DNA of 64,000 nt from contig LJSH01000005.1 of the NCBI GenBank assembly GCA_001314625.1, positions 58,285 through 122,284 of the forward strand, in the 5' to 3' direction. Positions 3,770-6,165 of this stretch are shown piece after piece; the first letter of the stretch is position 1, and every line of letters starts with the position of its first letter. This DNA comes from Oceanicaulis sp. HLUCCA04 (lineage in GTDB: Bacteria; Pseudomonadota; Alphaproteobacteria; Caulobacterales; Maricaulaceae). A program made the translations under genes and the position numbers. The notes under the pieces were generated by a model. That model was not told the DNA's origin. It searched no databases and saw only the letters and a program-made list of their open reading frames with translations.

Positions 3770-4369
3770 ATGGGACTTCAAACGCTCGGGCCCGCGCCCG
3801 CAGCGCTGTTAAGCCTGTCTGAGGCCAAAGCCTGGCTGCGTGTGGGCCATGCCAGTGAAGACACGGCCATCACGGCGCTCATCACTACGGCCACCGCGCG
3901 CGTGGAGGCCGAGACGGGCCGGGCGCTGCTGACCCGCACGTTCCGCGAAACACTCGATAGCTGGCACCCGCGCCGGCTGTCGGGCTGTGGCTCGGCCTTC
4001 GCGCTGGCGGTTGCCCCTGCCGTCAGCGTGGAGGCCGTGCGCACCTTTGACCGGGCAGGCGAGGAGACGCTCTGGGATGAGGCGGAGTATCGCGTTGACA
4101 CATCCGCAGACCCCGGACGCCTGATCGCGCGGGCACCGTTTGCGTTTCCGAGGCCCGGCCGGCTGGCGGCGGGGATCGAGATCGATTTTTCCGCAGGCTA
4201 TGGCGAGACGGCCGCCGATGTCCCGCCTGCCCTGATCGAAGCGATCTTGCGTCTGGTGGCAGAGGGCTATGCGGCCAGCGAACCCGCGCTCGCGGCGGGA
4301 CGCGGCCCTGCCAGACTGCCCGAAACCGTCGATAGCCTTTTACGGCCGTTCCGGCAGGTGCGGCTATGA
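3770..4369 (+). CDS. GTA head-tail connector/adaptor protein (gp6-like)
   Basis: About 199 aa. The N-terminal LSLSEAKAWLRVGHASEDTAITALITTATARVEAETGRALLTRTF is the signature of phage gp6-like head-tail connectors, which sit under the portal ring. The frame stays open upstream into repeat DNA, but ATG 3770 is chosen because an AAGGA site (3756-3760) precedes it at the right spacing. It overlaps the next gene by four bases (ATGA). The g7 stopper gene that usually follows in Rhodobacter is absent here. Confidence 0.88.
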   Translation: MGLQTLGPAPAALLSLSEAKAWLRVGHASEDTAITALITTATARVEAETGRALLTRTFRETLDSWHPRRLSGCGSAFALAVAPAVSVEAVRTFDRAGEETLWDEAEYRVDTSADPGRLIARAPFAFPRPGRLAAGIEIDFSAGYGETAADVPPALIEAILRLVAEGYAASEPALAAGRGPARLPETVDSLLRPFRQVRL

Positions 4370-4773
4370 GCGCGGACATGGCCCTCCAGGCTGGGCTTCT
4401 CGCCCATCTGGCCGCCGATTCCGGGGTGCAGGCGCTCACGGGTGACCCGCCCCGGCTCTATGACCGCGCACCGGCGGGCGCGCCTTATCCGTATCTATCT
4501 CTCGGCCGTCATGAAAGCCGTCCGCTTGATGGCGATGACACGTCGTTGAGTGAGCACCGCCTGACCGTGCATGTGTGGACGCGCCGTCAGGCCTTTGGCG
4601 AGCTCAAAGCGATCACCGGAGCGGTATCGGCCGCCCTGCACAATGCGGCCTTCAGTCTCGATGGCGGCTACCGCCTCGTCCTGTGCCAGATCGTCTACAC
4701 GGACCATTTCGAGGGAGCCGACACCCGCTCTGTCCACGGGCTGGTGCGGGTCAGGGCGCTGTTGGGCACATGA
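4366..4773 (+). CDS. GTA tail terminator, DUF3168 family (GTA gp8)
   Basis: About 135 aa. DUF3168 features are clear: LQAGLLAHLAADSGVQALTG, PRLYDRAPAGAPYPYLSLG, and LTVHVWTRRQAFGELKAITGAVSAALH. Proteins of this family cap the tail tube where it meets the head. It is translationally coupled to the adaptor gene (ATGA overlap). It is the last head/neck gene before the AT-rich insertion. Confidence 0.9.
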   Translation: MSADMALQAGLLAHLAADSGVQALTGDPPRLYDRAPAGAPYPYLSLGRHESRPLDGDDTSLSEHRLTVHVWTRRQAFGELKAITGAVSAALHNAAFSLDGGYRLVLCQIVYTDHFEGADTRSVHGLVRVRALLGT

Positions 4774-4828
4774 AACGATTGCGTGACTTGTCTTGCTATG
4801 CGACTGTTGCAGTACATGGGGGCACAAT

Positions 4829-5374
4829 ATGTCTTTTGATAATTACGTTAGTCTATTTACTGCCATAGGAACTATGGTCTCTGCTTTTGCGGCTGTTTCT
4901 CTAGGTGTTTATGCGGTTTTAACAAATATTTCTGAAAGAAATAATTCGGTAAAATTTGAGAGCATCTCTTTCATACGTTCGATGGCGACTGAAGCCGTAA
5001 TCATTCAAATGTTTGAAGAATTAAGAAAGGTACGCCACTACGTGGAATCTCACAAAATTCCGATAAGTTATAAAGAAATGCAAATTGAAGTTAGTATCGA
5101 AAACTCTGTTCTAAATTTTGATAATGTTATCAAAAAGACTCTGAACTATTATGAAGTAGCCTGCATTGGAGTGAAGCGAGGTGCGCTACATGAGGAAATA
5201 ATCAAAGATTGGTGGGGCGACGCGATAGTGGCTGACTGGATCGATCTGCAGCAATACGTGTATGATGCCCGGAAGGCCTTAGACTATGACGAGTTGTACA
5301 TCGAGGTCGAGCGCCATGTGCGCCGCTGGGTAAAGCCCGGACGCGCTGGCGAGTTGCTCCCCGCAAAGCGCTAG
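4829..5374 (+). CDS. AT-rich foreign gene inside the GTA cluster; possible DUF4760-like membrane protein
   Basis: About 181 aa, starting MSFDNYVSLF after a GGGGG stretch at 4818-4822. One N-terminal membrane helix (residues ~8-34, LFTAIGTMVSAFAAVSLGVYAVLTNI) is followed by a soluble helical region rich in Lys, Glu and Ile. The body (about 4829-5200) is far more AT-rich than its neighbours: the 60 bases from 4921 and from 5101 are each about 27-28% GC, whereas the flanks are near 65%. The last ~100 bases are GC-rich again. The architecture resembles DUF4760-type proteins, but this was not tested. It has no counterpart in standard GTA clusters and is probably a horizontally acquired cargo ('moron'-like) gene. 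Function unknown. Confidence 0.75.
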   Translation: MSFDNYVSLFTAIGTMVSAFAAVSLGVYAVLTNISERNNSVKFESISFIRSMATEAVIIQMFEELRKVRHYVESHKIPISYKEMQIEVSIENSVLNFDNVIKKTLNYYEVACIGVKRGALHEEIIKDWWGDAIVADWIDLQQYVYDARKALDYDELYIEVERHVRRWVKPGRAGELLPAKR

Positions 5375-5397
5375 CAGCGCAGATATCCCGCTCCATC

Positions 5398-5423
5398 AAA
5401 GCCGCCCCCGGGGCGGCTTTTTT
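5398..5423 (+). terminator. Intrinsic terminator after the inserted gene, inside the GTA cluster
   Basis: GCCGCCCCCGGGGCGGC forms a near-perfect GC-rich stem at 5401-5417, flanked by AAA on the left and six T on the right. It lies 24 bases after the stop of the AT-rich gene and about 40 bases before the major tail protein start. It should stop much of the transcription arriving from the head genes or the inserted gene. Confidence 0.8.
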
Positions 5424-5461
5424 CATGCCCGAAACCAAAGATCCCAAGAGGAGTAAAGCCC

Positions 5462-5878
5462 ATGAGCGCCCAGGCAGGACGCGACATGCTCATCAAGCTC
5501 GGCAATGGCGCGAGCGAGGAGAGCTTTTCCAGTGTGGCGGGTCTGCGCGCCAAAGCGCTCAGCCTGAATGCGCGCACGATTGACGCCACCCACGCCGATA
5601 GCCCCGGCCAGTGGCGCGAGCTGATCGCCGGCGCCGGCGTGAAGACCGCCGCCGTCACGGGCACGGGCATTTTCCTCTCCGGCGAGGGAGATAGCGCCAT
5701 AAGGCAGGCCTTCTTTGCCGGTTCCACGCCCAATTTCCAGCTTGTCATCCCGGAGTTCGGGATCATCGAGGGCGCGTTCGCGATCAGCGCGCTGGAATAT
5801 GCCGGACGCCATGATGGCGAGGCGACCTTCTCCATCTCGCTGACGTCTGCCGGCGCGCTCAGCTTCGAGGCGCTTTAG
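5462..5878 (+). CDS. GTA major tail protein (gp9)
   Basis: About 138 aa, the phage-tail-tube (TIGR02126-type) family: MSAQAGRDMLIKLGNG near the start, then FSSVAGLRAKALSLNARTIDATHADSPGQWRELI and GVKTAAVTGTGIFLSGEGDSAIRQAF. These proteins form the hexameric rings of the tail tube. A strong AAGAGGAGT ribosome site precedes ATG 5462. It is the first gene after the terminator and begins the uninterrupted tail block. Confidence 0.93.
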   Translation: MSAQAGRDMLIKLGNGASEESFSSVAGLRAKALSLNARTIDATHADSPGQWRELIAGAGVKTAAVTGTGIFLSGEGDSAIRQAFFAGSTPNFQLVIPEFGIIEGAFAISALEYAGRHDGEATFSISLTSAGALSFEAL

Positions 5879-5880
5879 CC

Positions 5881-6165
5881 ATGGTCAACCGGCAACGCGG
5901 CGAAGTGATTCTGGAGGTGAGGGGGGAGCACCATGTGCTCTGCCTGACACTGGGCGCGCTTGCTGAAATCGAAACGCTGACCGGCGCAGGCGATATGACC
6001 GAGATTGGTCCGAAGCTCGCCGGTCTTGATGCCAATGGCATGCTGGCACTGCTCTCGATCCTTCTGCGTGCGGGTGGAAACACGGTGGATGCGCGCCAGC
6101 TCGCCATCACGCCTGCCAACGCCGCAAAAGCCATTGCGCAAGCGTTCGAGGCTGCGGCGCAATGA
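5881..6165 (+). CDS. GTA gp10, tail assembly protein (gene transfer agent family)
   Basis: About 94 aa. The sequence NRQRGEVILEVRGEHHVLCLTLGALAEIETLTGAGDM is typical of the GTA-gp10 family, likely a tail assembly chaperone acting on the tape measure protein. It starts 3 bases after the gp9 stop and overlaps the next gene (ATGA). The predicted helical end (NAAKAIAQAFEAAA) fits the family. Confidence 0.85.
   Translation: MVNRQRGEVILEVRGEHHVLCLTLGALAEIETLTGAGDMTEIGPKLAGLDANGMLALLSILLRAGGNTVDARQLAITPANAAKAIAQAFEAAAQ

Follow-up and report, generated by a model that had tools for sequence, protein, structure and literature searches.

The junction between genes g8 and g9 in the gene transfer agent (GTA) clusters of what seems to be the family Maricaulaceae recurrently holds extra cargo, and the histories of this cargo and of the GTA disagree. 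In the window, by which we mean the whole analyzed stretch of 64,000 nucleotides from Oceanicaulis sp. HLUCCA04, the present occupant is a gene for a DUF4760 membrane protein (P0001). We consider it rather probable that the junction is a moron slot, in which cargo with its own terminator would be tolerated through anti-terminated GTA transcription, and that the cargo would probably consist of addiction or defense genes. Single-gene moron logic is known; DUF4760 and toxin–antitoxin-like cassettes alternating in one GTA junction are not described in the literature searched.

The occupant of the junction in the window

The junction and its surroundings comprise the following features.

4366–4773, + strand: g8, tail terminator/completion gene and left edge of the slot (PF11367, gp17; E 1e-33); its stop codon lies directly before the insert
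4774–4828, + strand: cassette leader of 55 nt, from the g8 stop to the P0001 start
4829–5374, + strand: DUF4760 membrane protein gene (P0001), 181 aa, ATG at 4829, stop at 5374
4847–4933, + strand: predicted membrane-spanning segment of P0001, residues 7–35 (Kyte-Doolittle mean >1.6)
5400–5423, + strand: intrinsic terminator closing the cassette, with stem AGCCGCCC, loop CCG, stem GGGCGGCT and then a T run
5449–5453, + strand: AGGAG ribosome-binding site of g9, read from the sequence
5462–5878, + strand: g9, major tail (tube) protein gene and right edge of the slot (PF06199, E 1.8e-40)
5881–6165: g10 (PF11836, "GTA-gp10")

The conserved head–tail gene order, together with the GTA-type g10, identifies the cluster as RcGTA-type, and small- and large-terminase-like ORFs were recognized by eye upstream of the window. 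Agents of this type make particles carrying random host DNA, as this one may also do. An earlier note on this DNA had described an AT-rich gene for a membrane-anchored protein between g8 and g9, in a span (4774–5397) that runs from the g8 stop to nearly the terminator. The ORF is real and has the length and the neighbors given there, with one hydrophobic segment. Its composition deviates as claimed, with a GC content of 0.29–0.39 over 4800–5199 (150-nt windows; lowest 0.29) vs about 0.60–0.73 in the flanks (~0.65). The guess of a DUF4760-like protein was also right: P0001 matches PF15956 (DUF4760) at E 2.5e-21 and 76.7 bits against a gathering cut-off of 25, over positions 2–141 of the 141-position profile. 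The gene is present in a single copy in its genome and is the only gene of its cassette, with no adjacent antidote gene of the kind that marks a toxin–antitoxin system. A scan for sigma-70-type promoters reported no such site in the leader (4774–4828), which also holds neither a micro-ORF nor repeats.

DUF4760 is a little-studied membrane protein family, whose name occurs in one paper of the literature searched, in a gene table, and other resources add little on P0001. PADLOC-DB 2.0.0 returned 0 defense families at E up to 1, and neither NCBIfam nor the PDB gave a relative. The AF2 model (mean pLDDT 82.8) found nothing at E <= 0.001 in the PDB or BFVD by Foldseek; the best PDB match had E 3.0, and the best BFVD match (A0A3G8F6F1) had E 0.0059 and TM 0.60. 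The best VIA Z was 5.2, which is not informative for a helical protein, and the structure offered no clue from its fold. The PHROG match is PHROG 2284, a group without assigned function, and five Acinetobacter phages carry a distant DUF4760 (27% identity to the protein of genome G010). Kinship to SLATT or ToxN proteins was rejected, as Pfam listed, at E <= 1, only DUF4760 and DUF6098, the latter below its cut-off. The note's proposal of a defense or exclusion gene is plausible, but PADLOC offered no match.

Occupancy of the junction within and outside the family

Profiles of the window's GTA genes served to measure the g8–g9 interval, and a slot was called filled when it exceeded the median by >250 nt. 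A first survey of 99 family genomes, 70 with g9, was extended to 137 genomes, 97 with g9 (27 new regions; the count leaves out a second, weak g9-like place in G081). The junction was filled in 15 of the first 70 and in two of the 27 added regions, which makes 17/97, with inserts of 0.37–2.0 kb. The other 80 were not enlarged by >250 nt, in agreement with the note's statement that there is usually no extra gene at this place; in G690, the interval is 232 nt, with no evident gene.

Several unrelated kinds of cargo occupy the filled slots. Nine of the 97 hold DUF4760 (G000, G010, G030, G044, G046, G052, G075, G098 and G691), five a pair of DUF4258 and MqsA-like helix–turn–helix (HTH) genes (G029, G034, G079, G087 and G695), and one each a HicAB-like pair (G049), two antisense membrane genes (G089) and a 0.37-kb remnant (G041). 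Toxin–antitoxin-like pairs consequently account for six of the 17. The six genomes of the window's genus alone show DUF4760, a HicAB-like pair, a DUF4258/MqsA-like pair, a remnant and two empty junctions (28 nt in G014 and 24 nt in G059), and P0001 is in none of the other five. The DUF4258 assignment (PF14076) comes from Pfam for the proteins of G029 and G087 and for a third one common to G034 and G695, and the remainder were assigned by likeness. The two MqsA-like HTH proteins tested (G029 and G034) scored 57.3 and 60.0, just below the NCBIfam cut-off of 61.8, and the others were likewise assigned by likeness. In G049, the HicB-like partner reached 37.7 bits in Pfam (cut-off 27), while HicA had no match in Pfam, NCBIfam or the PDB and was assigned by eye. 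A palindrome, TATCACGGTGATA, lies just upstream of the DUF4258 gene in the four cassettes inspected (L004, L016, L022 and L024), in one of them with a single change, and is likely an autoregulatory operator.

Outside the family, long intervals were rare. A class survey of 387 genomes gave 48 with g9 including the window's, and in 37 of the 39 others with g8 and g9 on one contig the two matches were <=230 nt apart; the exceptions were G344 (854 nt) and G343 (3,553 nt). Among the best 80 of at least 588 named loci, 74 gave g8 and g9, and three were filled, all with DUF4760. These are Marinicauda pacifica P-1 km-3, Maricaulis maris DSM 4734 and MAG bin.34, probably the same loci as G030, G075 and G052. 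The best 80 g9 matches in IMG/VR, in which GTAs and phages are unsorted, included 73 with g8 and g9 and five intervals >205 nt. One was on a contig identical to the window (L248), and two held no convincing gene (L268, 251 nt; L288, 213 nt). In the other two, a GTA-like cluster (L312) had a nucleotidyltransferase–HEPN pair (PF01909 and PF05168, both above cut-off), and L324 had TerB (PF05099) with a terminator. The L312 junction also holds a long antisense transporter-like ORF.

A second IMG/VR search, with one conserved peptide pattern of the slot DUF4760s (16 stretches), found four relatives, and all four were GTA clusters with DUF4760 at g8–g9; the window and G075 each have an identical copy among them. 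As a side observation, the "viral" contigs L216, L217, L218 and L219 are GTA clusters, one of which is identical to the window's in the genes compared, so virus collections include GTA loci. Separately, DUF4760 also occurs between g4 and g5 of a Brevundimonas GTA (L154:1683-2072), a second GTA junction for this protein family.

The g8–g9 junction is one of three much-used ones. Junctions enlarged by >250 nt numbered 1/59 for g3–g3.5, 6/59 for g3.5–g4, 2/63 for g4–g5, 14/66 for g5–g6, 0/69 for g6–g8, 15/70 for g8–g9, 6/67 for g9–g10, 0/66 for g10–g10.1, 0/64 for g10.1–g11, 0/64 for g11–g12, 14/65 for g12–g13 and 1/64 for g13–g14. The g14–g15 junction was enlarged in 17/51, the window included, although these distances may depend on how the long g15 frame was cut. 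With g5–g6 and g12–g13 enlarged equally often, the note's premise that GTA conservation makes cargo unusual is too strong for this family. What sets g8–g9 apart, as far as can be read by eye in the part of the junction sequences listed, is the kind of cargo; among those listed, no toxin–antitoxin pairs were noticed at other enlarged junctions. At g12–g13, eight GTA clusters (L112, L114, L117–L120, L125 and L126) have a secreted-looking SRPBCC/AHSA1-like gene with Pfam scores just below cut-off. At g5–g6 (capsid/g6), small antisense membrane-protein-like ORFs were seen by eye in L110, L111, L116, L119, L123, L127 and L130–L132, and the one tested matched no Pfam family.

Cassette anatomy and exchange

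The cargo forms a unit, mostly of 0.7–1.25 kb, that starts straight after the g8 stop and, if sense-oriented, is closed by a strong intrinsic terminator. With g9 starts approximated by a fixed length, a hairpin terminator precedes g9 in 18/19 filled slots, or in 16/17 once two contigs that duplicate others are set aside, and in none of 55 empty ones, against a background of 64 hairpins in 789,656 nt of the remainder of these loci (0.081 per kb). The one filled slot without it is G089, with antisense cargo. The hairpin lies about 25–71 nt before g9 and is similar across cargo types (in most, AGCCGCC...GGGCGGCT or ACCGCC...GGCGGT, followed by a T run), consistent with an exchange of cargo between shared borders. 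Insert GC was below flank GC in 19/19, with a median difference of 0.10. In G049 (L003), the g8–g9 linker TTTTCAACC... stands at both ends of the HicAB-like insert, possibly a scar of insertion or recombination.

Most DUF4760 cassettes have a second element. In seven of 11 distinct slot cassettes (G010, G030, G046, G052, G075, L217 and L219), a micro-ORF with EGT[NS]R repeats lies between g8 and DUF4760. Its 19–36 codons come with a ribosome-binding stretch rich in purines and encode two to four [EG]G[TSI][NS]R repeats; six of the seven have the C-terminus EG[TI][NS]R. The order in these cassettes is micro-ORF, intrinsic terminator and DUF4760, with a leader of about 340–480 nt, so that terminators flank DUF4760 on both sides; the scan caught six of the seven micro-ORF hairpins, and that of G052 is visible in the sequence. 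Variation among the repeat codons is synonymous, and a very short alignment of two related copies gives dN 0.042 and dS 0.94. Short leaders without a micro-ORF are found in G044, G098, G691 and the window, whose allele either lost the micro-ORF or never had one.

The micro-ORF was not found near 26 other DUF4760 loci, including the Brevundimonas one, some of which have little upstream DNA. A loose pattern gave one match among them, GASR repeats on the opposite strand in L033, which we took as chance. The exact pattern matched in IMG/VR only on two contigs, both slot GTAs. A micropeptide search of 99 family genomes, not exhaustive in that it missed the known slot micro-ORFs of G030 and G052, gave 22 genomes with a match at E <= 1. 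Those of G010, G075 and G046 were in the slot. Six weak matches in G065 (E 0.002–0.03) lay in one 234-codon frame and were dismissed after a motif check found no micropeptide, and the remaining matches had E above 0.05.

Trees and pairwise comparisons bear on how these cassettes move. On a GTA tree built by a quick method from eight concatenated GTA proteins (74 rows), all filled slots fall into one 34-row clade, with 19 filled and 15 empty; the best tree requires 10 switches between filled and empty, 9 of which the starred branches force, and 15 switches of cargo state. Between close relatives, the unit is present or absent and is replaced by unrelated units (DUF4760, DUF4258/MqsA-like or HicAB-like). 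For example, L219 (filled) and G026 (empty) share 92–98% DNA identity in their GTA genes and differ by a clean ~1 kb, and the window agrees in DNA with its nearest non-identical row, L217, at 84–88% in GTA genes but at only 55% in DUF4760, for which dS was not computable. Across genera, several pairs resemble each other in the fast-evolving DUF4760 at least as closely as in the GTA proteins (54% vs 50% for G052 and G010). An AU test rejected a DUF4760 clade of genus code g10 (p 0.0037) and, more weakly, one of genus code g5 (p 0.041), the groups having been defined by genus code once a first tree had been inspected. The DUF4760 tree was made after dropping seven distant or partial rows, an eighth (L226) not being recovered by the profile, and the AU test further left out five long rows and the duplicate L218. 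The pattern of a gene present in most relatives with matching phylogeny, which the note had named as what would speak against it, is thus not the one observed, and its suggestion of a moron-like gene in a GTA junction fits the conflict in phylogeny and the five sister genomes without the gene.

The slot DUF4760s also form one side of a branch against 18 other DUF4760s, with support that is not strong (84/77). Such a grouping is what long residence and exchange within the slot might leave. Because they group together, the note's "recently acquired" can be true of the window allele at most. Where measurable, DUF4760 is under purifying selection (dN/dS 0.065 for L218–L219), as are the flanking GTA genes (dN/dS 0–0.25).

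Explanations and relation to known systems

In the window, an extra gene lies between genes that are adjacent in relatives, has a composition unlike its neighbors and carries its own terminator. Within a single late operon, a terminator would shut off g9–g15 in the absence of anti-termination, and it is from this that we infer a moron arrangement. In ordinary cells, the terminator would insulate g9–g15 from transcription of the cargo. In GTA-producing cells, by analogy with GafZ of Caulobacter, anti-terminated RNA polymerase may read through at least partly, so that the cargo would not abolish particle production. Cassettes would move by homologous recombination between shared flanks (g8, the terminator and g9). 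With less assurance, we suggest that the DUF4760 protein is a putative inner-membrane effector of an addiction or abortive-defense type, whose benefit would go to the cell or cluster and not to the GTA particle; this first guess comes from its company in the slot, namely type II toxin–antitoxin-like pairs and the nucleotidyltransferase–HEPN pair of L312. In C. crescentus, GafZ anti-terminates past terminators including rrnB T1, yet only part of the polymerases pass, and even in the presence of GafYZ reporter activity fell about 8-fold at terGTA (PMC11150451, excerpt). Since anti-termination is only partial there, carrying a terminator within the operon may come at a cost. Other points also count against the moron-slot reading. 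Independent expression is a defining trait of morons, and no promoter is evident before the window gene, whose allele lacks the micro-ORF as well. P0001 has no match in PADLOC or NCBIfam, HicA was assigned by eye, and the tested MqsA-like proteins stay just below cut-off. In G089 the antisense cargo has no terminator, and neither its membrane genes nor TerB in L324 are toxin–antitoxin genes.

A bolder version, which we hold tentatively, is that GTA clusters of this family harbor addiction cassettes that would punish loss of the cluster. These would comprise toxin–antitoxin pairs and a new two-part system of EGT[NS]R micropeptide, terminator and DUF4760 membrane effector, and would pass between lineages through homologous recombination, GTA-borne or otherwise. 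The GTA, supposedly selfless and inherited vertically, would then be kept partly by selfish passengers, and anti-termination through both terminators would couple the cassette to GTA production.

It is unlikely, in our view, that the slot is filled because the DUF4760 protein serves the GTA itself, being expressed with the late operon and aiding release, membrane lysis or exclusion of incoming GTAs or phages. The same strand and place in distant genera, the grouping of slot DUF4760s, their purifying selection, the membrane segment of P0001 and the lack of a visible promoter of its own in the window would all suit such a role, as would the C. crescentus GTA, which has no canonical holin–endolysin (PMC13236601, excerpt). 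However, DUF4760 occurs in only nine of 97 family GTAs and is missing in close sisters with selected GTA genes, toxin–antitoxin pairs that would not have such a role replace it, and terminators stand on both sides of it in seven of 11 distinct cassettes.

Somewhat less likely still, the cargo could be mobile accessory DNA of an ordinary kind, functionally unconnected with the GTA and among its members, in small transcription units that survive at a junction crossed by anti-terminated transcription. Extra DNA at g5–g6, g12–g13, g9–g10 and g3.5–g4, including the antisense membrane genes and the SRPBCC-like gene, is what this would lead one to expect, as is TerB in L324. The two equally enlarged junctions and the partial anti-termination in Caulobacter make this explanation slightly stronger and the moron-slot reading slightly weaker. 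It is hard to square with the toxin–antitoxin-like pairs in six of 17 filled family slots and in L312, when none were noticed by eye at the other enlarged junctions listed, and with the grouping of slot DUF4760s apart from 18 others. Finally, a one-off recent foreign insertion, as the note's lone inserted gene would have been, might explain the strong AT-richness and the absence from five same-genus genomes, but is very improbable and was rejected in view of eight more family genomes and three more IMG/VR loci (one identical to G075) that have DUF4760 in this position, and of a slot that recurs and also holds toxin–antitoxin pairs.

The moron-slot reading has precedents in part. Tab, a moron of Pseudomonas phage JBD26, is likewise an extra gene in a late structural operon and helps the host; the prophage expresses Tab constitutively, and a counter-protein to it exists (PMC10884400, excerpt). 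Unlike a phage, the GTA here cannot spread itself, its cargo alternates with toxin–antitoxin pairs, and the window copy has no evident sigma-70-type promoter. Gene order is shared with RcGTA-like head–tail clusters and their phage relatives, in which the counterparts of g6–g10 vary and genes are inserted at certain loci; the available text of that study concerns phages and does not describe recurrent toxin–antitoxin or DUF4760 cargo in GTAs (PMC11409702). The CcGTA operon also has a strong terminator inside it, bypassed by GafZ, but this one is repeat-based and follows the first gene, whereas here a hairpin closes the cargo at g8–g9 (PMC11150451, excerpt). DUF4258 is a RelE/ParE-superfamily toxin family with MqsA fusions, and its type II modules resemble the adjacent PF14076 and MqsA-like HTH genes in five sister slots, with a palindrome upstream in the four inspected; they differ in that the slot pairs lie inside a GTA cluster and that the tested HTH proteins fall just under the NCBIfam cut-off (PMC11980606, excerpt).

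The type III toxin–antitoxin system ToxIN consists of repeats, a terminator and an effector gene, with a nucleotide-repeat RNA as the antitoxin and a ToxN-family toxin. The same order is seen in seven of 11 distinct slot DUF4760 cassettes, but the slot repeats are conserved as peptide rather than as nucleotides (dN and dS above), and the effector is no relative of ToxN by Pfam. Only DUF4760 is above the Pfam cut-off and the window copy has no repeats, so a type III assignment is not made. In the excerpts of literature searched on GTAs with toxin–antitoxin systems, morons, head–tail insertions, addiction or superinfection, and Maricaulis or Oceanicaulis (including PMC9632790 and PMC11841831), the recurrent g8–g9 slot is not described.

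The persistence of GTAs despite the death of producer cells is a puzzle. A docking site for toxin–antitoxin or defense cassettes would offer a testable selfish answer, as deletion of the cluster would cost the antidote or the defense. The moron-slot reading also predicts anti-terminated GTA transcription in this family, as in Caulobacter, and the findings draw attention to DUF4760, with its conserved micropeptide neighbor, in a GTA setting. Although GTA clusters are regarded as tightly inherited, this one offers interchangeable and probably self-serving genes a place to dock.
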